Source: Sulfurimonas sp. (GTDB taxonomy: Bacteria; Campylobacterota; Campylobacteria; Campylobacterales; Sulfurimonadaceae). Taken from it: a DNA stretch of 56,472 nt. The stretch spans positions 1 through 56,472 of the forward strand of contig JALWTK010000108.1 in assembly GCA_027082875.1 (NCBI GenBank). Direction: 5' to 3'. The translations under genes and the position numbers were made by a program. The notes below the pieces were generated by a model, which worked only from the letters and a program-made list of their open reading frames with translations, did not search any database and was not told the origin of the DNA. The stretch's first letter is position 1. Each line of letters opens with the position of its first letter. Below, in pieces: positions 40,279 through 50,742 of this stretch.

Positions 40279-41852
40279 GTCTACTCTACCCTTTTATACT
40301 CTTTTTTCTACTCCCACTTTTTTTTCTTTACAAGAGAAGTAAAAACTTTGACCAAAAGAAAAGAGTACGTCAAAAAAATCTACTCTATATCTCCCTCTTT
40401 TTTATGCTACTTGCACTAGCAAGACCAGTCATACCAAATGCTCTGGAAGAGCAAAATATTGATGCTAAAGATTATATTATTGCTCTTGATGCCTCTTTTT
40501 CTATGCAGGCAAGTGATCTCACCCCAAGTCGATACGGCGTTGCTAAAGAAAACATAGAAAAGATAGTCACTACTCTTAAGAAGGATAGATTTAGTATTTT
40601 TGCTTTTACAACTAATACTATGCTTATCTCACCCCCGACAACAGACTCTACTATCTCTATGCAAGCACTCAACTCACTAGAACCTAAGTACATTCTTACT
40701 AAGGGAACTTCTCTACTTGGACTTTTCAAAACTCTTGCAAAGACTTCCTACAGGAGTAAAGAGGTAATTATATTTAGCGATGGAGGCGAAGATCAAAACT
40801 TAGCACATTTAGTTTCACTTTGTAAAAAAAATAATATCATTCCTTACATTGTAGCAACTGCTTCAAGTAGAGGCTCAACTCTTATGAAAGAAGATAAACT
40901 CCTGCTAGATGATAAGAAAAATCTTGTTATCTCAAGAGAAAATCCACTGCTGAAACCTTTAGCCTCAGAGTGTGGTGGCAAGTACTATCAACTTCAATCA
41001 AACAAGGATATATCGCAAAATATCATTGCTGATTTGCAGAAAGAAAAAAATACCATTGCAGTTAAAACTAAGATACGAAGTTATAAAGAGCTCTATTTTA
41101 TTCCACTTCTTTTAGCTCTATTTACTTTTTTCTTAGCCGTTACAAAACTACATCAACTTTACATCTTTATCCCTCTTTTACTACTGCCACACCCTAGTGA
41201 AGCCTCTATGCTTTTTGATTTTTATCATCATACTCAAGCAAAAAGTGCTTATGAAAACAAAGATTTTCTTCGTAGTGCGGAGGAGTTTCAAGATCTATCA
41301 CCCTCTGTACAGAGCTATTATAACACTGGAGTCGCTTACTATAAAGCAGGAGCTTATAAAAAAGCGATGCGGTACTTTTCTCAAATCAAAACCCCAAATA
41401 GCATACTCAAAAGTAAACTCTTTTATAATATGGGTAATGTAGCGATAAAGCTTAAACATTACAAACTTGCTATAGCTTATTACAAAAAATCTCTTACTTT
41501 ACATGATGATACAGATGCCATTTATAATCTCAGCCTCCTTTATAAACTTGCACCTAAAGAGCAAAAAGATCTCTCAAAAATGTTAGCTCACAAAGCAAAA
41601 AAACAGAAAAAAGAGGAAGAGAAGAACAAACAAAAGAGTAAAAAATCAAAAAAGACGAAAAAATCCGGTTCAGGAGCAAATCAAAAAGCTTCACAAAAAT
41701 CTGCTGGAAGTGGCAGCAATAAGAAGAAAAAGAAAAAAGAGAATGAAAATCTTCAACTTGTAAAAAAGAAAAACACATCAAAATACAAACTCGGCTACCA
41801 TGCCTATGAGCTCATCAACAAAGGATATACAAATGAAATACACCCTTGGTAA
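40275..41852 (+). CDS. batB: BatB/BatC-like VWA plus TPR protein
   Basis: 525 residues. Two N-terminal membrane helices, a VWA domain (about 65-255) with the MIDAS variant DASFSMQ, two hydrophobic segments near residue 280-305, then TPR repeats (about 330-430: VQSYYNTGVAYYKAGAYKKAMRYFSQI, then SKLFYNMGNVAIKLKHYKLAIAYYKKSL) and a long Lys/Ser-rich low-complexity tail. BatB and BatC are fused here, as in several Campylobacterota. The tail may be unstructured and periplasmic. It overlaps the next gene. Confidence 0.87.
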   Translation: MSLLYPFILFFLLPLFFLYKRSKNFDQKKRVRQKNLLYISLFFMLLALARPVIPNALEEQNIDAKDYIIALDASFSMQASDLTPSRYGVAKENIEKIVTTLKKDRFSIFAFTTNTMLISPPTTDSTISMQALNSLEPKYILTKGTSLLGLFKTLAKTSYRSKEVIIFSDGGEDQNLAHLVSLCKKNNIIPYIVATASSRGSTLMKEDKLLLDDKKNLVISRENPLLKPLASECGGKYYQLQSNKDISQNIIADLQKEKNTIAVKTKIRSYKELYFIPLLLALFTFFLAVTKLHQLYIFIPLLLLPHPSEASMLFDFYHHTQAKSAYENKDFLRSAEEFQDLSPSVQSYYNTGVAYYKAGAYKKAMRYFSQIKTPNSILKSKLFYNMGNVAIKLKHYKLAIAYYKKSLTLHDDTDAIYNLSLLYKLAPKEQKDLSKMLAHKAKKQKKEEEKNKQKSKKSKKTKKSGSGANQKASQKSAGSGSNKKKKKKENENLQLVKKKNTSKYKLGYHAYELINKGYTNEIHPW

Positions 41853-42975
41853 TATACTCCTGCTTCTTCTCTTTTGCAACTCCTATCTCTTAGCGGATAG
41901 CACTTTAGCTTCTTACACGCTCAAGGCTAATAAAACTACTGCCGTTATCAAAGAGCCTGTAGTTATTACCTTTACAGCAAAGCAAAAAGACCATAGAGAC
42001 CATATGTTCTTCGCACTAGAGCCAAAAAGGAATAAAGAGTATAGTATTGTACTTTTAAATAAAAAGGTTGATGACAGCAGATACCATGATTCATCAGCTA
42101 CTTTTACCTATCTTTTATTTCCTCTTAGTGAAAAAGATTTACATGTGCATTTTAACTTGACCATAAAAACTGCAAGTGATAAGGCAATAAAACAGAGTTA
42201 TGTTGATGATCATGATGATAGTATCGCCATTAGTACCTATGATACAAAAGTAAAGATGCAAGCAGTTTATATTCATATGAAACCTCTCAAGCATCCAGTA
42301 GACTTAGTAGGTGATTTCAGACTTAGTGAGAGTATTGACAAAACGGAAATCTCTCAGTTTGAGAACCTCAATGTACATTATCTTCTTATAGGAAAAGGAT
42401 ATAAGGCAGAAAAGTTAAAGCTACTTAATAGTGCTAATCAAACTATCTCTCTCTTTGAAAAAGAGAACATCCTACAAAATCGTTTAACAACAGAGGGATA
42501 CATTTTAAAAAAAGAGTATATTTATGCCATAACAGCTAAAGAAAATTTCAACATACCAGCAGTCACTCTTCAGGCTTACTCACCTACAAAGCATATATAC
42601 TACACACTGAGTACTCAAAAGAAGAGCATTAAGGTCACAAAAATAGATACTACAGTACTCTTAGATAAAGAGGAGTTTCCAAAAAAGAATGAGCTTGATT
42701 TTACTCTTTATAAAAATATTTTAATTGCCTGTATCATATTTTTCGCTGGATTTTTAACAGCAAAAATGAGTGAAAGTTTTAGATTTAAACGCAAGGATAG
42801 AAAATTTTTAGATATACAGAACAGTACATCTACACAAGGCTTAATACTTCTACTTATGCATAAATATAAAAACAGAGATATAGTAAAATTTATTGATAAG
42901 CTTGAGATGATACAGTATAACAGATCATCCCAAACCTTAGAAGAGGTAAAGAAGCAGATACTCGAAGAGTTTTAA
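41833..42975 (+). CDS. batD: BatD-like protein
   Basis: 380 residues from the ATG at 41833, which opens a signal peptide (KYTLGNILLLLLFCNSYLLADS); a longer in-frame ATG at 41800 lies inside the preceding gene and would add a polar leader. Periplasmic beta-rich domain with one C-terminal membrane helix (ILIACIIFFAGFLTAKM) and a short cytoplasmic part. Position, length and topology fit BatD/BatE rather than a clear motif. It overlaps batB by 20 bases and converges on the molybdoenzyme operon. Confidence 0.78.
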   Translation: MKYTLGNILLLLLFCNSYLLADSTLASYTLKANKTTAVIKEPVVITFTAKQKDHRDHMFFALEPKRNKEYSIVLLNKKVDDSRYHDSSATFTYLLFPLSEKDLHVHFNLTIKTASDKAIKQSYVDDHDDSIAISTYDTKVKMQAVYIHMKPLKHPVDLVGDFRLSESIDKTEISQFENLNVHYLLIGKGYKAEKLKLLNSANQTISLFEKENILQNRLTTEGYILKKEYIYAITAKENFNIPAVTLQAYSPTKHIYYTLSTQKKSIKVTKIDTTVLLDKEEFPKKNELDFTLYKNILIACIIFFAGFLTAKMSESFRFKRKDRKFLDIQNSTSTQGLILLLMHKYKNRDIVKFIDKLEMIQYNRSSQTLEEVKKQILEEF

Positions 42976-42982
42976 TATAATT

Positions 42983-43441
42983 CTATGTAAAGAACTCTAC
43001 ATATACCTTGTCTAAGTATTTTTTTGCTTTTTCAGCCTTTGCAATCTTTACATCAAAAATCTCTTTTGATGATGGGTATTTCTCACCATACTCACGGTAA
43101 AGATCAGACTTCATATCCATATGCTCTTTAAAAACACCAACAACTGCTTTCATATCTTCAGGAGTAGCTATCCACTGCATAAAGTTCTTAAACATTCTCT
43201 CACGAACATCAAGAGCAAAAGACTCATCAAGTTGTGCTGCCATTCTTTTTAAATCCCAACGTGATATAGTTATTCCCGACTTTGAGGGAGGCATAATCTC
43301 TGCATAGATAGCACGCAGATAATCTGGATAGTCTTCATACTCATCCTCTACACATCCCTCGTCATTACATGAACCCTGCATTGCCTGTTGTTGCATCGCT
43401 TCAAATTCACTTCTAAATTCATTTAAATCTTTTATATCCAT
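42983..43441 (-). CDS. unknown protein, last gene of the molybdoenzyme operon
   Basis: 152 residues, acidic and largely helical (DEYEDYPDYLRAIYAEIMPP, RWDLKRMAAQL, MFKNFMQWIATPEDMKAVVGVFKEHM). No signal peptide. Two Cys near the N-terminus (C-N-D-E-G-C) could bind metal. I do not recognise it. The start ATG lies 2 bases after the stop of the preceding gene, and all seven operon genes are this tight except for one hairpin gap, so a role in maturation or assembly of the molybdoenzyme is inferred. A helical chaperone-like fold similar to TorD is possible but unproven. Confidence 0.65.
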   Translation of the reverse strand: MDIKDLNEFRSEFEAMQQQAMQGSCNDEGCVEDEYEDYPDYLRAIYAEIMPPSKSGITISRWDLKRMAAQLDESFALDVRERMFKNFMQWIATPEDMKAVVGVFKEHMDMKSDLYREYGEKYPSSKEIFDVKIAKAEKAKKYLDKVYVEFFT

Positions 43442-43443
43442 AA

Positions 43444-43875
43444 TTAACTCTCTTTTATATAGTTTGTAAATATTTCATGAGCTAAGGCTTCACCCTCTAG
43501 CACACCATTTTTTCCTAAGTAAGTTCCTATTAGTCGCTCACCCTCTCTCAGTACAAAATCACATCTGTTGTAGACCTGTACAAACTCATCCGCTTCATCT
43601 AAAAGTTCTACTGCAGCTGTTTGGTACTCTTCAGCTATATAAGCACCATTCACATGAGATTTTTTCATATTAGCTAAGGTAAAGTAAAAATCATCCTCTC
43701 GTATGTTCATAGGAATCATCATAGCATCTTCACCAGATTTCTTTATATCTTTATTAAGCATGACAAAAAGTCTATTTGGACTTGCATGTTCTGCTATAAG
43801 TCCAAAAAGTTTTGTTTGTACTTTAATAGAATCATCTGCATTCATAGTATCTACTTCTTGCATATTTTCATTCAT
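43444..43875 (-). CDS. unknown protein of the molybdoenzyme operon
   Basis: 143 residues from the ATG at 43875, which overlaps the previous stop as ATGA and has GGGG just upstream; an in-frame ATG 12 bases earlier is possible. Mixed alpha/beta, acidic, no signal peptide and no membrane segment: KVQTKLFGLIAEHASPNRLFVMLNK, then MMIPMNIREDDFYFTLANMK. I do not recognise a family. Translational coupling to the ferredoxin gene suggests a complex or joint assembly role. Function inferred from context only. Confidence 0.62.
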   Translation of the reverse strand: MNENMQEVDTMNADDSIKVQTKLFGLIAEHASPNRLFVMLNKDIKKSGEDAMMIPMNIREDDFYFTLANMKKSHVNGAYIAEEYQTAAVELLDEADEFVQVYNRCDFVLREGERLIGTYLGKNGVLEGEALAHEIFTNYIKES

Positions 43876-44972
43876 GACATCCCCCATAATTCTCTAGCTT
43901 CTTCTTCTTCAATACGACAACGATCACACATCATTTCACCACCACGATATGTAAAGTAGTTACCACACTCATCACAGCGTTTTATATCAAAACGAACTAA
44001 GGTCTCTATCTTTGGCTGAAAAAAGCTTGAGAGAGAAAAAGTTTTTCTCAGAGTAAGAGCATCTGGTTCACAGACATCATGACAGCTATGACACTGCACA
44101 CAAGCAAGTGGATTAAAGTTTATCATACTTCCACGATTGTCTGAGCTTAAAGCACCTGTAGGGCATATCCTATAACACATCTGACAATTTGTACAAGTAG
44201 TCTCATCTAAATCTTTTTGAGAAACAAAAGAGATATCTGCTATATCAATAGTATGAAACTCTTTTGGAATAGATGCCCGTTTCATTGCCATCATAAGAAG
44301 ACTTCTTCTATCGGGCAACTTTTTTTCTTTTATTTTAAGAATATCTGCTGGACTTACTGCATGCTCTTTTACAACTGCATCACTAGCCGCAATCTCATTC
44401 TCAAGTTGTTGCTTTATGCCTATAGCGGACTTGACACCCTGTTTTGAAAGAAGTTGACGTCGAGATAGACTCTCTCCACTCTTGTCAATTACATAATTTA
44501 TCTCATCAACAATAACCTGCTTTTCTTGTAGCATAGCTTCAAGTAAAAAGTTTACCTCTTCTGCTCTGTCTTTAATTATTCGCAGATTTGTATGTGCGAT
44601 TGGGCACTCTTTACAAGGACCAATATCTAAAGAAATATTTTGCGAAGATATAAGTGCAATACTGAGTATCTCTTCACTGCTAAGAGCGGCAATACAAGGA
44701 AATTCTGTATCCTTGCAGGTCAAAATATTATGATCACTCTCTAAAAATTTAAAGATATAATTTATAGGATTAAAAGTATCAAGTGAATAAGCTGATGTAG
44801 GACAAGCTGCATTACATCCACCACATCCTACACAGTCTGCTGGGGTAAAGGAGAGCTGTGAATTTTCAAGTTTAATAGTCTCAACAGGACAAACATCTAC
44901 ACACTTAGTACAAATGGCGAACTTATTTGAAGTATGAACACACTTAGATATATCTAAAGTTAGTAGACTCAT
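43872..44972 (-). CDS. cytoplasmic multi-cluster ferredoxin-type accessory protein
   Basis: 366 residues. Two ferredoxin-type pairs: an N-terminal set (CTKCVDVCP, CVGCGGCNAACP) and a C-terminal set (CTNCQMCYRICP, CVQCHSCHDVCEP), with a linker of about 170 residues carrying C-K-E-C and a helical stretch. The end is a zinc-ribbon-like CDECGNYFTYRGGEMMCDRC followed by ELWGMS. No Tat or Sec signal, so it is cytoplasmic and probably delivers electrons or helps build Fe-S centres of the enzyme. Its architecture resembles NapF-like accessory ferredoxins but is longer. It overlaps torD by 4 bases. Confidence 0.75.
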   Translation of the reverse strand: MSLLTLDISKCVHTSNKFAICTKCVDVCPVETIKLENSQLSFTPADCVGCGGCNAACPTSAYSLDTFNPINYIFKFLESDHNILTCKDTEFPCIAALSSEEILSIALISSQNISLDIGPCKECPIAHTNLRIIKDRAEEVNFLLEAMLQEKQVIVDEINYVIDKSGESLSRRQLLSKQGVKSAIGIKQQLENEIAASDAVVKEHAVSPADILKIKEKKLPDRRSLLMMAMKRASIPKEFHTIDIADISFVSQKDLDETTCTNCQMCYRICPTGALSSDNRGSMINFNPLACVQCHSCHDVCEPDALTLRKTFSLSSFFQPKIETLVRFDIKRCDECGNYFTYRGGEMMCDRCRIEEEEARELWGMS

Positions 44973-45619
44973 GCTTCGTAATTATATCCACTATTTTTCA
45001 ACTCTGTTAAATACTCAAAGTCACTCAATATAAACTCTAAACCTAAATCAGCGACATCATAATAAAATGCGGTACCCGCTTCACTTTTTACATTAAGCAA
45101 ATACATTGGTGCCCACTCCATAATATGATCTTTCATAAAACCATACTGAATTCTAGCAATCTCAGCAGCTGCTTCAAAGTCTTTATTTTCTAAAGCTTTT
45201 CTTTCAGAATCACAAAGCATATACATAAATTCAAGTTCAATACCAATATGATCAGCACTCATCACTCTTGCTTTGTCTAATTCTACACGAAAATCAAGAG
45301 CCATAAAGACTTGTTGTACAGGGTTGTCTCCACCAGTTTCCATCATCTGATCATCTCTTATATAAAATGATTCATAAGGAATAAGGTGTAGTAAGAAAAG
45401 GTTAGTAAAATCAACATTAAGATATTTTTCGATTAAATCTGTTCTACTCATTTTATCCTTTTTTTCCCATGTTTTATATGTAGGAAAGAAAGAGAGCATA
45501 TTCTCATCTTCTTCTATTGATTTTAATAGCCCTTCATCTATTTCACTCATCATAACACGTGATAATAGTGCATAAAAATTTATACGTGCAGTCTGTTCTT
45601 GTTGTAAATCATTATTCAT
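44969..45619 (-). CDS. TorD/DmsD-family molybdoenzyme chaperone
   Basis: 216 residues, all-helical. ARINFYALLSRVMMSEID and YESFYIRDDQMMETGGDNPVQQVFMALDFRVELDKARVMSADHIGIELEFMYMLCDSE match TorD-like proteins, which bind the Tat signal of the catalytic subunit and hold it until the Mo cofactor is inserted. It sits directly downstream of the catalytic gene, separated by a hairpin that may lower its expression. Overlaps the next gene by 4 bases. Confidence 0.85.
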   Translation of the reverse strand: MNNDLQQEQTARINFYALLSRVMMSEIDEGLLKSIEEDENMLSFFPTYKTWEKKDKMSRTDLIEKYLNVDFTNLFLLHLIPYESFYIRDDQMMETGGDNPVQQVFMALDFRVELDKARVMSADHIGIELEFMYMLCDSERKALENKDFEAAAEIARIQYGFMKDHIMEWAPMYLLNVKSEAGTAFYYDVADLGLEFILSDFEYLTELKNSGYNYEA

Positions 45620-45660
45620 TAATTTTGTACCTTATTATGGAAAATATTCTGTGGAAGTAT

Positions 45661-45690
45661 AGTAAAGCAGCACTTGAAGTGTGCTTTACT
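45661..45690 (-). terminator. intercistronic hairpin between catalytic subunit and chaperone
   Basis: AGTAAAGCA (45661-45669) pairs with TGCTTTACT (45682-45690), and CACTT/AAGTG extends the stem. On the minus (coding) strand it directly follows the stop of the catalytic gene at 45698. No good T tract follows on that strand, so partial termination or RNA-end protection is more likely than full termination, which would reduce expression of torD and later genes. Confidence 0.55.
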
Positions 45691-45697
45691 TTTTGGA

Positions 45698-48600
45698 TTA
45701 AACGTCTTTAATTGTAACTTCGTAAGCTTTTTGACTTGGCTTAACTGGGCGTTTGATATGGTAAGGACGACGTAACGTATCACCTGCTTCAAGTGGGCGA
45801 GTAAGTTGATCTCTCCACTCTCTGTAGACTTTAAAGTTATTTTCGTAATTAACATGGATATCACCAATTTTATCATTAGCACCTGCTTTAGTGATAATAA
45901 CTTTTTGATGCCAACCGTGGTTACCCGCAATTGGATCTGGATGACAGGGAGCAACAGCATTTTGCCATGCACCTGAGAGACCATTCCACCAGATATCATC
46001 TAAATCTTTGTTGTACTCTTTGAACTGCCATGCTTCATGAGGTTTAATACCCTCAGTAGTTGTCATAGTTCCAATTTTACCATCATTTGTCATATCCACC
46101 TTAGGTGAACCTAGACTCATAATACCAAGTGAGTGTTCAAACCCTGGAATATTAACAGCATCTTTAAGTTTCCAACGACCAGCATGGTGTGAACAAGCTA
46201 AAACACCTGGACGAGTTGCTTCAGTTGGTACAGCCATAGCTACGAAGTAACCACTTTTTATACCAGTTAAAGTATCTTGTATTTGTACTTTTATTGCATC
46301 ACCACGTTTAATGCCAAGTTTTTCAGCATCTTTTGTGTATATCCAAACAGGATTATGATTTTGTGAAATCTCCATAAGGTGCTTAGAGTTCACAGAACGT
46401 GTGTGAATATTATATGGTAAACGATAAATCGTATTCAATGCAAATTCATTTTCTGCATTCATATGCTTATGGTGAACTTGAGTTACAAGGTGAACCATTT
46501 TATCGTTTTCTGCATCATTTCGTGGATAGATAGGAACAGCATATTCAGGCCACTTCCACTCATCAGCTAACCACTCAGAGAAGAACTCTAGTTTTTTACT
46601 TAATGTGTGGAAACCTTCTTTCAGTTCGCCATCAATATCTACACCAATAGATTTTTTGAAATCACCATCTTTTACCCATAGTGCACCAAACTCATCTTTT
46701 GTTACTTCAGATTTCGCATACTTATGTCCGTGCGCATGGTAGTATTTACCATCGAACTCAAGCTCTTCTTCTTGAGGCTTATAGACATCAGTTTTCTCAG
46801 TCCAAGCACCATGATCTCTCATATAGCTATATACTGGATACTCTTCTTCCGGATACATTTTATGTGCTGCATCGTTAAGTTTTGGTAAAAGACTCATCGC
46901 AGTATCAAACCATTCTGGAACAGTAACACAACGTGATGGATCTTTTTTACTTGCCCAGTATTTAGCAACACCAAGACTACCATCTGGATCCACATGGTGC
47001 ATAATAAGGTTAGGCCAGAATTCTGACTCTTCCCATACTTCACCAAGACCAAACTTCATATGTGCTTCAAGAGTAGCACGAGTTGGATCTTTTGCTTTCC
47101 ATCCCATCTTCTCTGCAGCTACGCGAAGTACTGCTTGACGGAACTCTATACGTTGTTCTGGTTTAGATGGAGTTGACTGTTGGTCATTTCTCTCACCTGC
47201 AAGTCCAACTGGAAGAACATAATCACAGTACCAGTTAGTCTCAGACCAAGTTGGAGATAAGTTAAATGTTACTTCAAATTTCGACTCATCTTTAAGTGCT
47301 TCCATCCAACGGAAACCATCTGGATTAATCCAGAGTGGATTGTGCATTCTTGGAACATATACAGCTATAGATTTAGGAATCTTCAGACCTTTTTTTGTCC
47401 ATTTCGCATGCCACTTATCATCCATCATCATCTGAGGTAACATAAAGCCCATCTCATAAGTAGAAATTGGATACTCAGGTGGCCATGCCAACTCATTCCA
47501 TGCATCAGTTTTTCCAGGATGTTCTCCAGCTACTGTAGCCTTATCACCTTTACCTGCAACTGAAATCTCATGCCAGTGGTGCATACCAACACCACCAATG
47601 TCACCACGCATAGCTCCAACAAGAGCAAGAGGTAAGAAACCAGCACGAGTATTCATCCAACCACCACGGTGACCAATAGCTCCTGCACGCCATAAGTAAG
47701 ATGCTATCTTAGCACCAGCTGGAACAAAAAGTTCCCATAACTCATCAAGTTTATACTCCATGCCTTCAAGTTTACACTCTTTAACAACAAATTCTTTAGT
47801 ATACGGTGAGTAAAGTTCTTGTGCTAACTCAATAAATGACTCATAAGAATCATCTTTTGGCATTTTAGAAATATAGCCATAACCAATCATCTTTTTAAGA
47901 TAATCTTTATTTGCCATCAATCTATCCCAGTTCATCCACTCTTTTACATACTCATGATCTACTATATCTGAACCATCTTTTTTCTTTTCATGGAAAATAC
48001 GATTAGCTAAATAGAGATAAAGGGCTGCTTCAGTTCCCGGCCATGCAGGAATCCATAAATCAGCCATACCAGCAGAGTTAGACATACGAGGGTCAATAAC
48101 AACCATTTTTGCACCACGTTTACGTGAATCAGCGATTAAACCAGCTGATTGTTGGAAGTAGTGACCAGCATCTGCAGCATGAGATGATTGTAAGAAGATT
48201 AAATCTGCATTTCCCCAATCTGGAGAGTTTCTATCATCATTTGCCCACTGAATAGTGCCTTCACGAGCACCTGCAGAACAGATGTTCGTATGAGAGTTGT
48301 ACCCATCAATACCTAGTGATTGTGGAACACGTGGTCCAAAACCATTTTCATTTGGACGACCAACATGATACATGATTTGTTTTTTAGAAATTTCATCACC
48401 CTTAGCAAGTGTATCATGCATTTTCTTACCGATGACACCCATCGCTTCATCCCAAGTTACACGAACCCACTTACCTTCACCACGTTTAGAACCTGGTGCA
48501 CGCTTGATTGGGAAAGGAATACGATCTGGATCATACATTTGAGAAGTTACAGCATATCCTTTTGCACAGTTTCTACCACGAGAACCTGTGTGAAGTGGAT

Positions 48601-48988
48601 TACCCATATATTTACGTACTGTTAATATACCTTTTTCAAACTCATTAGTATTTACCCATGCTGTAAGACCACAACCAGCTTCACAGTTTGAACAAACTGT
48701 AGGAACGATTGTATAGTCATTTACTTGGATACCATCAGGGTTAGATTCGCTACGAACACCGTGACGCTCAATACCACCACGTTTCCAGTCTGTACCATCT
48801 AACTCTTTAAAACTATCCCACTCTTTTACATCTGGGTAAAAAGAGAGAGTGTCTGGAGTATTTGTAAACTTACTGTCGCTAACAGATTCTGCAGCTGCAT
48901 CAGTTGCAAAAACTCCCTTAGCAATAGCTACACCAGCAACGCTGAATGCAGCACCTTTTAAAAATGTTCTTCTACTTTGTAAATACAT
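45698..48988 (-). CDS. Tat-exported molybdopterin oxidoreductase, catalytic subunit
   Basis: 1096 residues. Twin-arginine signal SRRTFLKGAAF at residues 5-15, then the [4Fe-4S] motif C99-x2-C102-x3-C106-x34-C141, then a molybdopterin domain. The segment NSHTNICSAGAREG (around residue 231) matches the position where this family supplies the Mo ligand, with C237 the likely ligand, as in polysulfide, thiosulfate, tetrathionate and arsenate enzymes. It is longer than typical PsrA/PhsA (about 750). The C-terminal molybdopterin-dinucleotide domain (LNTIYRLPYNIHTRSVNSKHL, GVLACSHHAGRW) is complete. Exported with a FeS subunit and an NrfD anchor. Substrate unresolved: polysulfide, sulfite or other sulfur compound most likely. 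Confidence 0.85.
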   Translation of the reverse strand: MYLQSRRTFLKGAAFSVAGVAIAKGVFATDAAAESVSDSKFTNTPDTLSFYPDVKEWDSFKELDGTDWKRGGIERHGVRSESNPDGIQVNDYTIVPTVCSNCEAGCGLTAWVNTNEFEKGILTVRKYMGNPLHTGSRGRNCAKGYAVTSQMYDPDRIPFPIKRAPGSKRGEGKWVRVTWDEAMGVIGKKMHDTLAKGDEISKKQIMYHVGRPNENGFGPRVPQSLGIDGYNSHTNICSAGAREGTIQWANDDRNSPDWGNADLIFLQSSHAADAGHYFQQSAGLIADSRKRGAKMVVIDPRMSNSAGMADLWIPAWPGTEAALYLYLANRIFHEKKKDGSDIVDHEYVKEWMNWDRLMANKDYLKKMIGYGYISKMPKDDSYESFIELAQELYSPYTKEFVVKECKLEGMEYKLDELWELFVPAGAKIASYLWRAGAIGHRGGWMNTRAGFLPLALVGAMRGDIGGVGMHHWHEISVAGKGDKATVAGEHPGKTDAWNELAWPPEYPISTYEMGFMLPQMMMDDKWHAKWTKKGLKIPKSIAVYVPRMHNPLWINPDGFRWMEALKDESKFEVTFNLSPTWSETNWYCDYVLPVGLAGERNDQQSTPSKPEQRIEFRQAVLRVAAEKMGWKAKDPTRATLEAHMKFGLGEVWEESEFWPNLIMHHVDPDGSLGVAKYWASKKDPSRCVTVPEWFDTAMSLLPKLNDAAHKMYPEEEYPVYSYMRDHGAWTEKTDVYKPQEEELEFDGKYYHAHGHKYAKSEVTKDEFGALWVKDGDFKKSIGVDIDGELKEGFHTLSKKLEFFSEWLADEWKWPEYAVPIYPRNDAENDKMVHLVTQVHHKHMNAENEFALNTIYRLPYNIHTRSVNSKHLMEISQNHNPVWIYTKDAEKLGIKRGDAIKVQIQDTLTGIKSGYFVAMAVPTEATRPGVLACSHHAGRWKLKDAVNIPGFEHSLGIMSLGSPKVDMTNDGKIGTMTTTEGIKPHEAWQFKEYNKDLDDIWWNGLSGAWQNAVAPCHPDPIAGNHGWHQKVIITKAGANDKIGDIHVNYENNFKVYREWRDQLTRPLEAGDTLRRPYHIKRPVKPSQKAYEVTIKDV

Positions 48989-49001
48989 TTATATATTCTC
49001 C

Positions 49002-49925
49002 TTAACTCAACGGTAATAATTGTGGGATGACAAGCCATACATGCTTAACTACCCATAGACCTGCGATAGCTAAAATAGCTGCAAGTGTTAAAATACTGTT
49101 ACTTTTACTTACTCTGTAAAGTGCAACAAGAATCATCGGTAAGATATAAGCTACCCATTGTCCTATCCAGAACATAGTTGCATATTCACCGTCACCTTTA
49201 ACATAAGCTAAAATTGCTGTTACTTCTTCTGCTTTCATTGAACCGAAAATATACTCTGACATGTAGATAATAAATGCAAGTAATGCACTTAGCCCTAAGA
49301 TAGAAGCAAAGAAGTTCTTTGTCTCATCGCTAAGCTTAGAACCACCAAGTAAGATAATCGCTGCAGAACCACTAAGTGTAGCTGCTAAAATCATCTGCAC
49401 TGATTCAGTTGGCATTTGCCATAGTTCACGTGCTGTTGCTTCTGCCATGATACCCGCAGTATAAAGAGTAACTGGAATCGCTAAAAGTGTTACCCAAAAA
49501 AGTAATTTATCAAAAGTTGCATTTGCATCACTTGTTAATAAGCACTTATCTTTTCTAATCATCATTGCAGCCATTAGAAACTCGAGACCAACAAAAACAG
49601 TTGCCATCCATGCACCAACAGTAATTGCTGAAGTCCAGTGAGGATAGAAAAAGATATGCCACATTCTAAATGGTTGATGTAAGTCAGCCAATGTAAAAAG
49701 TAAGAAAACATTCATCATAACAAATGAAACGATAATTGCAGAAGTTCTTACTCCACTCATTTCACTAGCATTTTTTCTAAGTAATAAGAAAAGCATAAAT
49801 ACTAGACCTGTACCTATACTTTTCGCCCACATATTCATAGTAACAAACCAGCCCCAAAATACGTCTGGTAATGGTACATCCAAAGTAACTACAGCATTTG
49901 TTGCTGCTAAAGTTTCATGTATCAT
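49002..49925 (-). CDS. NrfD/PsrC-type quinone-linked membrane anchor
   Basis: 307 residues with about eight membrane helices (for example WGWFVTMNMWAKSIGTGLVFMLFLLL, then WHIFFYPHWTSAITVGAWMATVFVGLEFL). The pattern, length and position match PsrC/NrfD, which exchange electrons with menaquinone. No haem-ligand motif is obvious, as expected for NrfD. It starts 4 bases inside the FeS subunit gene and is followed by the catalytic gene after 13 bases. Confidence 0.9.
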   Translation of the reverse strand: MIHETLAATNAVVTLDVPLPDVFWGWFVTMNMWAKSIGTGLVFMLFLLLRKNASEMSGVRTSAIIVSFVMMNVFLLFTLADLHQPFRMWHIFFYPHWTSAITVGAWMATVFVGLEFLMAAMMIRKDKCLLTSDANATFDKLLFWVTLLAIPVTLYTAGIMAEATARELWQMPTESVQMILAATLSGSAAIILLGGSKLSDETKNFFASILGLSALLAFIIYMSEYIFGSMKAEEVTAILAYVKGDGEYATMFWIGQWVAYILPMILVALYRVSKSNSILTLAAILAIAGLWVVKHVWLVIPQLLPLS

Positions 49926-50560
49926 TCGTGATGCCCTCCTAATGGAAGTGTTGTGATTTTATTAAATAAGTTATACCCTTCTTCTCTTCTTGATGCGAGA
50001 GGATTAAGATTAACTTGACTTGCTCCAACATAGAAGTGATGAGGATTTGTGCCTTTTTCTGGTTTACGCACCTGAACATCTCTATGGTCTTGGATATACA
50101 TTGAAATATTTGATTTTGGATCTTCAAGGTCACCAAAAATATTTGCACCAACTGGACAAGCAACAACACATGCTGGCATCATAGATGAAGCAATACGGTG
50201 TGCACAGTAAGTACATTTATCAGCTGTTTGAGTCTCTGGGTCAATATAGATCGCTCCATAAGGACAAGCCATAACACAACCAGCACAACCGATACAACGC
50301 TCTTTATCGATATTTACAATACCGTTTTCAATATAGTGAAGAGCAGATACTGGACAAATTCTCTCACAAGGAGCATTTTCACAGTGATTACATCTCAGAG
50401 GTGTAAAAGTTCTCTTCGTTTCTGGGAAAGTTCCCACATCTACATACTTAACACGTAATCTCCATGTACTAAGTGGCACTTCATTCTCCACTTTACATGC
50501 GATCTCACATCCTTTACAACCCATACACAGGTGTAAATCAACTAGGAAACCTAATTGCAT
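49922..50560 (-). CDS. four-cluster ferredoxin subunit (DmsB/PsrB type)
   Basis: 212 residues from the ATG at 50560, chosen because AAAGGAG lies 5 bases before it; a TTG 18 bases upstream is in frame but lacks such a site. It has four [4Fe-4S] motifs: CMGCKGCEIAC, CNHCENAPCERICP, CIGCAGCVMACP, CTYCAHRIASSMMPACVVACP. It should pass electrons between the Mo subunit and the NrfD anchor. No Sec or Tat signal is seen, so it is probably co-exported with the catalytic subunit. First gene of the operon. Confidence 0.92.
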   Translation of the reverse strand: MQLGFLVDLHLCMGCKGCEIACKVENEVPLSTWRLRVKYVDVGTFPETKRTFTPLRCNHCENAPCERICPVSALHYIENGIVNIDKERCIGCAGCVMACPYGAIYIDPETQTADKCTYCAHRIASSMMPACVVACPVGANIFGDLEDPKSNISMYIQDHRDVQVRKPEKGTNPHHFYVGASQVNLNPLASRREEGYNLFNKITTLPLGGHHE

Positions 50561-50624
50561 ATATTCTCCTTTGGCCAATCACGGCTTATTTAGATTTATA
50601 ACTACGACTAATTTTTATTAAAAG

Positions 50625-50657
50625 AAGCCCTTATGCACGGCATTTAGGGCTTTTTTT
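50625..50657. terminator. intrinsic terminator between hisD and the molybdoenzyme operon
   Basis: AAGCCCT (50625-50631) pairs with AGGGCTT (50646-50652), with an inner TGC/GCA stem. On the plus strand seven T follow (50651-50657). On the minus strand, the direction of hisD transcription, the stem is followed by CTTTTA, so it can end the hisD operon before the molybdoenzyme promoter. Confidence 0.7.
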
Positions 50658-50742
50658 ACTGTTCTAATATTAGCTAAGTTACCTTAAGCAACTAATAAAT
50701 TGAAAGAAAAATTATGTGATTTTTTTGTTATATGGGTAATTT

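Follow-up and report, generated by a model that had tools for sequence, protein, structure and literature searches.

Molybdoenzymes of the PsrA/PhsA type combine a periplasmic Mo subunit, with Cys as metal ligand, with an iron-sulfur (FeS) subunit and an NrfD anchor. In the Campylobacterota, four psr clusters have been described in S. indicum ST-419, of which psrA1B1C1 is highly expressed both with and without sulfur reduction, with no significant change, and psrA3B3C3 is induced by sulfur reduction (PMC10045233); a set of the first kind was named psrA1B1CD in Nitrosophilus, with the chaperone as psrE (PMC11539149). Sulfite chemistry has been proposed for two other systems. One is PSRLC3, regarded as an alternative system for sulfite oxidation in green sulfur bacteria (PMC6338057) and described in a Prosthecochloris genome report as encoded by two genes (PMC5473276). 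The other is SoeABC of A. vinosum and A. aeolicus, by description a Mo-bis(pyranopterin guanine dinucleotide) (Mo-bisPGD) subunit with an FeS subunit and an NrfD-type anchor, in which SoeAB is predicted to be cytoplasmic, without a twin-arginine translocation (Tat) signal, and an inverted SoeC was proposed in a review on functional grounds (PMC8076601). Here we analyse a seven-gene molybdoenzyme operon in a 56,472-nucleotide (nt) stretch of Sulfurimonas sp. DNA (contig JALWTK010000108.1; the window, throughout), which comes from a 2.34-Mb Campylobacterota genome assembled in 204 contigs. Judged from its sequence, the catalytic subunit is sister to the PSRLC3-type cytoplasmic family and groups apart from PsrA and PhsA, and the two complexes seem to be one enzyme in mirrored orientations.

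The operon comprises seven co-directed open reading frames (ORFs) at 42983-50560 on the minus strand, in the order FeS, NrfD, Mo, TorD, Fd, u1 and u2, with lengths given in amino acids (aa):

49922-50560, minus strand: FeS subunit (ferredoxin-like, 16 Cys type), 212 aa from ATG 50560, without an export signal of its own
49002-49925, minus strand: NrfD/PsrC-type membrane anchor, 307 aa, eight transmembrane segments; the charge pattern predicts N-out and a periplasmic face
45698-48988, minus strand: Mo-bisPGD catalytic subunit, 1096 aa, Tat signal, putative Mo ligand Cys237; predicted sister of PSRLC3
45661-45690, minus strand: hairpin AGTAAAGCACACTTCAAGTGCTGCTTTACT between structural and maturation genes; position kept, sequence varies
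44969-45619, minus strand: TorD/NarJ-type chaperone, 216 aa; Nitrate_red_del
43872-44972, minus strand: ferredoxin Fd, NapF-like, 366 aa; two pairs of 4Fe-4S motifs and a C-terminal 4-Cys (zinc-ribbon-like) tail
43444-43887, minus strand: u1, substrate-binding domain of a putative shikimate dehydrogenase homologue, 147 aa; catalytic Lys/Asp motifs lost
42983-43441, minus strand: u2, helical, 152 aa; homologue of the C-terminal domain carried by fused TorD chaperones in related operons

All of these ORFs lie where the original prediction had placed them, and its gene order, including a Tat-exported Mo subunit, is borne out by the Tat motif and by Pfam. The matches were Fer4 domains in FeS, PF03916 (67 bits) in NrfD, Molybdopterin, Fe4S4 and dinucleotide-binding domains in the Mo subunit, four Fer4 motifs in Fd, and PF02613 (Nitrate_red_del) in the chaperone, at 55.4 bits against a cut-off of 22.2, which assigns it to the TorD/NarJ family. 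The best FeS start is ATG 50560; the mechanical ORF opens at TTG 50578. NrfD and FeS overlap by 4 nt, and Mo follows NrfD after 13 nt. Among the accessory genes, the chaperone lies 78 nt from Mo, Fd overlaps the chaperone by 4 nt, u1 overlaps Fd by 16 nt, and u2 is separated from u1 by 2 nt. Such overlaps (4 or 16 nt) and gaps (2-78 nt) are consistent with a single operon.

The Mo subunit carries the Tat signal MYLQSRRTFLKG, and an RRxF[LI] Tat motif is present in all 21 Campylobacterota orthologues. Cys237 of the motif NSHTNICSAG, earlier singled out as the likely Mo ligand, does align with the Cys of Thermus PSR, ArrA, NapA and PhsA; the same column holds Ser in DmsA and an in-frame stop (selenocysteine) codon in FdnG. 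The protein is also as unusually long as had been remarked, at 1096 aa compared with 757-884 aa for the PhsA/PsrA-type proteins compared and about 940-1000 aa usual in its own clade. NCBIfam models of known enzymes gave only weak, partial matches to it (best 112 bits, far under every cut-off; PhsA model, 111 bits against a cut-off of 694), and the TtrA, TtrB and TtrC models all scored below their curated cut-offs (44/1750, 210/416 and 34/314 bits, respectively). The best solved structure, Thermus PSR, matched 265 residues only.

Full-length relatives with 34-37% identity were recovered by a plasmid search from Thermomicrobium, Rhodococcus and haloarchaea, and a genome scan seeded with them yielded 80 named loci from Chloroflexota, Chlorobi, Bacteroidota, Planctomycetota, Acidobacteriota and others. 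Two trees were computed, one from the N-domain (237 columns) and one from full-length proteins (819 columns), with ArrA, DmsA, FdnG, NapA and PSR only partly represented in the latter. Both joined the window, the other Campylobacterota and the relatives at an ultrafast bootstrap (UFBoot) of 100, in a clade that excludes PhsA, PsrA-type proteins, Thermus PSR, ArrA, DmsA, FdnG and NapA. Within it, the Campylobacterota branch (UFBoot 100) is sister to the relatives (94), and the next outgroup is the PhsA-like enzyme of an Azoarcus KH32C plasmid. The window system thus matches PsrA/PhsA in architecture but not in grouping, since its Mo subunit falls outside the PhsA equivalogs, the PsrA-type proteins and Thermus PSR in both trees. 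The phylogeny proposed in the original prediction thus gives a position outside PhsA, PsrA, ArrA and FdnG, but the enzyme is not an orphan: its closest kin, the PSRLC3 type, was missing from the list of families to compare. Mo subunits of that type are about 40-45% identical to the window protein over their full length and are accompanied by homologous FeS and NrfD domains. The two branches have the motif NSHTN[IV]CS in common, and at 218 alignment positions each has the same residue with 90% conservation or more.

Membrane orientation was predicted from counts of lysine plus arginine (K+R) in the odd and even loops of NrfD, whose homologues from either branch could be aligned across 283 columns (hhalign probability 100, E 9e-41). 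In the Campylobacterota the counts are 11.6 for odd versus 3.9 for even loops, predicting a periplasmic face in 21/21 proteins, whereas the FeS-NrfD fusions of the relatives show 1.2 in odd loops versus 11.6 in even loops plus termini, predicting a cytoplasmic face in 69/69. Controls with periplasmic catalytic subunits gave odd:even ratios of 7:3 (E. coli DmsC), 12:3 and 11:2 (NrfD of two PhsA operons), and the KH32C anchor (9:2) has the same charge pattern as the Campylobacterota. Together, the Tat signal in 21/21 orthologues and the NrfD charges would put the window complex at the periplasmic face of the membrane and the non-exported PSRLC3 type at the cytoplasmic face. With periplasmic outgroups, the simpler view is that the cytoplasmic form is derived. 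All cytoplasmic relatives were found by searching with proteins of that type, which may have left periplasmic members outside the Campylobacterota unseen. SoeABC differs from the window system in its predicted cytoplasmic position without Tat, and its inverted SoeC is a proposal in a review, whereas here both orientations are predicted within one family. A search for SoeA among the plasmid matches listed gave only formate dehydrogenase, dimethyl sulfoxide reductase or PhsA types. Tat-like motifs in three Thermomicrobium-type relatives were rejected, as their N-terminal RR is not followed by a hydrophobic stretch.

The Chlorobium relatives are encoded by two genes, one for a fused FeS-NrfD protein (about 520 aa) and the other for the Mo subunit (about 955 aa); we take these loci to be PSRLC3 from the two-gene description and general knowledge, not from accession numbers. 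The fusion has no counterpart in the window, and FeS and NrfD are separate genes in 20/20 Campylobacterota loci. In one locus of the Chlorobium type (L148), the Mo pair is followed by TauE, DsrE2, rhodanese and TusA, and 31 of 56 well-flanked relative loci lie near genes for persulfide dioxygenase, SulP sulfate permease, DsrE2, TusA, SQR or a related metallo-β-lactamase protein. Persulfide dioxygenase produces sulfite, and these sulfur genes form the setting expected for a sulfite-removing enzyme. In two Flavobacteriaceae loci (L171, L167), tandem sulfate permease genes and then a persulfide dioxygenase gene stand downstream of the Mo gene.

Across 298 evenly drawn Campylobacterota genomes, full-length Mo orthologues occur in 52 (counted from the match list), including all sampled genomes of the window's family; the remainder gave mostly short partial matches to other molybdoenzymes, and 23 gave none. 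The u1 gene is present in 48 genomes, 47 of them Mo-positive, and this co-occurrence, together with the spread of orthologues, indicates that the operon is not a chance assembly. The FeS-NrfD-Mo genes are contiguous in 20/20 neighbourhoods inspected, with the accessory genes directly behind in most, and synteny of the operon extends over several Campylobacterota families, with conservation in vent-type sulfur bacteria. Where unlinked from the enzyme, the four accessory genes (chaperone, Fd, u1 and u2) are usually grouped in a separate operon at another site (L172, L173, L176, L178-L181), which is only partly present in L174, L175 and L177. Detached yet still together, these genes appear to accompany the enzyme as a unit, with no need for adjacency, in line with the distinct maturation module originally suggested. 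A strict link between the enzyme and Sox was rejected, with SoxB above the family cut-off in just 16 of the 28 Mo-positive genomes scored.

The identities of the accessory proteins can largely be resolved by homology, so that calling the last three uncharacterised was too strong; with the chaperone they are best described as a conserved maturation set. The only models matched by u1 are those of shikimate dehydrogenase (2.7e-5 for the window copy and up to 1.4e-19 for longer orthologues), with aroE-type models matching 8/14 members, which assigns u1 to the AroE superfamily. Many orthologues have a full length of 250-300 aa with a Rossmann domain, which is lacking in the window copy. The catalytic NVTxPxK and NTD motifs were absent from the u1 alignment, and a separate normal AroE is encoded elsewhere in the genome; u1 would thus be a degenerate shikimate-dehydrogenase homologue. 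It evolves fast and is missing in one related genus (L081).

No family was assigned to u2, but its profile matches the C-terminal part of TorD proteins near the Mo genes of relatives, most strongly in L098 (14105-15202; E 1.9e-9) and more weakly in L117 (10621-11751), L163 (10834-11664), L168 (10685-11683) and L144 (12276-13148). The N-terminal half of each is PF02613, and these fused chaperones adjoin PSRLC3-type Mo genes of Chloroflexota and Acidobacteriota. Hence u2 is best read as a detached chaperone domain, and the chaperone may not be strictly tied to export, since some cytoplasmic relatives have the fused form. A single-sequence fold of u2 is predicted to be helical (mean predicted local distance difference test score 59). 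A RhoGEF match (E 4e-4, below the cut-off) was dismissed as spurious helical similarity, and no profile match supported DUF3305/DUF3306 of formate dehydrogenase clusters as the identity of u1 and u2.

Fd is NapF-like by profile. Its 4-Cys tail (C333, C336, C349, C352) and second 4Fe-4S pair are invariant, the tail also in a betaproteobacterial homologue; the Sulfurovum-like copies (L072, L073) have lost several Cys of the first cluster pair and kept the second pair and the tail. Neither Fd nor u1 turned up in the PSRLC3-type loci examined, and the chaperone is rare there, whereas the window has all three. The accessory trio, which the original prediction set apart from textbook operons, is conserved with this enzyme but is not wholly unique: the KH32C operon includes TorD and the same ferredoxin type. 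That operon also shares the order FeS-NrfD-Mo-TorD and the predicted periplasmic charge pattern; its Mo subunit differs (879 aa, 24.7% identical), and small DUF309-like and rhodanese-like genes replace u1 and u2. It occupies L090:6275-14588 on the plasmid, next to genes for arsenic resistance and a PhnD-like sensor set, and contains further small genes of unknown role.

The operon is probably already in the literature as psrA1B1C(DE) or 'PsrABC group I', labelled a polysulfide reductase by homology. The ST-419 locus tags RS03620, 06785, 07170 and 08440 parallel the order of molybdoenzyme genes at 703, 1348, 1432 and 1716 kb in the genome G225, from which we infer the mapping between the two. 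The Cys position 247 reported for ST-419 is that of the G225 orthologue, and soxB lies about 31 kb from this orthologue, agreeing with about 32 tags in ST-419. Position 247 is listed second in the ST-419 report (PMC10045233), which we take to be a mix-up of order. The psrA1 label assumes polysulfide reduction, with a cytoplasmic location given for ST-419, whereas here we find a Tat signal and a clade distinct from Psr.

In line with the unresolved substrate of the original prediction, our ranking puts sulfite only narrowly ahead of polysulfide. We lean towards a periplasmic sulfite:menaquinone oxidoreductase, the leading candidate at somewhat less than even confidence, because of the active-site motif shared with the sister branch and the gene neighbourhoods of that branch. 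Several points weigh against this choice. For PSRLC3, as for the window enzyme, sulfite oxidation is a proposed activity; the neighbourhood signal belongs to the cytoplasmic branch, and the Campylobacterota loci have no sulfite-specific neighbour. Further, the branches have different fixed residues at 43 positions, some of them clustered at 265-287 shortly after the Mo ligand, so their substrates may differ. Many hosts lack SoxB (below the family cut-off in 12/28), and some relatives of this kind make their living by reducing sulfur. Close behind, and also short of even, stands a periplasmic polysulfide or elemental-sulfur reductase, in which menaquinol would be oxidised at NrfD and polysulfide reduced to sulfide outside the membrane. 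It gains from the predicted periplasmic position expected for Psr, the occurrence in complete genomes lacking SoxB and the clade-specific residues near the Mo site, as well as from annotation as Psr and expression in sulfur-reducing Campylobacterota (PMC10045233, PMC11539149). It loses from the strongly supported placement outside Thermus PSR and PsrA-type proteins, from a sister group proposed to oxidise sulfite, and from the induction of psrA3B3C3, not psrA1B1C1, by sulfur reduction in S. indicum (PMC10045233).

It is unlikely that the enzyme acts on thiosulfate or tetrathionate, or reversibly, in the oxidative or reductive branch of sulfur disproportionation. The process is reported in Sulfurimonas and Sulfurovum without a known pathway (PMC9948710, PMC12998232), the enzyme is in all sampled genomes of the window's family, and the best NCBIfam match of FeS is TtrB, below its cut-off; however, no neighbour or motif indicates either substrate, and the TtrA model matches only partial stretches. 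Least credible by far is that Fd, u1 and u2 are mere neighbours with unrelated functions. Fast evolution of u1 and its absence from one genus would fit, but u1 is in 47/52 Mo-positive genomes and only one Mo-negative genome, the four accessory genes stay together when unlinked from the enzyme, and TorD is fused to u2 beside related enzymes.

Under the favoured sulfite reading, the complex would be a sulfur oxidoreductase with three subunits and a link to quinone, a member of the complex iron-sulfur molybdoenzyme superfamily that has its own maturation set, an outward-facing sister of the cytoplasmic PSRLC3 complex. The Mo subunit would fold in the cytoplasm with TorD, Fd, u1 and u2, of which u2 would be a split chaperone domain; Fd would probably supply Fe-S or perform a redox step, the role proposed for NapF, whose counterpart for u1, a shikimate-dehydrogenase-like domain that is dead, would probably be that of a binding or scaffold protein. 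Sulfite would be oxidised to sulfate, with electrons passing to menaquinone. A wider proposal, on which we place slightly less trust than on sulfite oxidation as such, is that the PsrA1 of nearly all vent Campylobacterota is this oxidoreductase, that one family exists in two orientations with the outward form tied to Tat, split FeS and NrfD genes and a maturation operon, and that it fills a gap in the disproportionation pathway of Sulfurimonas and Sulfurovum, namely sulfite oxidation. Sulfidic vents and redoxclines are dominated by Campylobacterota, several families of which have the enzyme almost without exception; its present assignment to sulfur reduction rests on weak similarity. If sulfite oxidation is correct, energy models and gene-based community surveys would change sign for the step concerned. 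The mirror-oriented NrfD homologues would offer a clean natural pair for studying how quinone chemistry is coupled to proton movement, and, through the conservation of the accessory set, three formerly unknown genes become maturation factors that can be tested.

An Rfam scan of the window returned one tRNA and no other element. The hairpin 3' of the Mo stop codon recurs in 9/10 Campylobacterota loci inspected, with a family-specific sequence and without a T-run, and may set different expression levels for the enzyme and the maturation genes. Another hairpin, AAATGCCGTGCATAAGGGCTTCTTTTAAT, at about 50615-50660 upstream of the FeS gene, is common to two same-genus loci (L066, L068) and could be the hisD terminator or a leader element. 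Downstream, 7 nt from the operon end, a convergent gene (41800-42975, plus strand) encodes a 391-aa protein with no clear Pfam match, which we suspect to be BatD-like and which recurs beside the operon in several related genomes.

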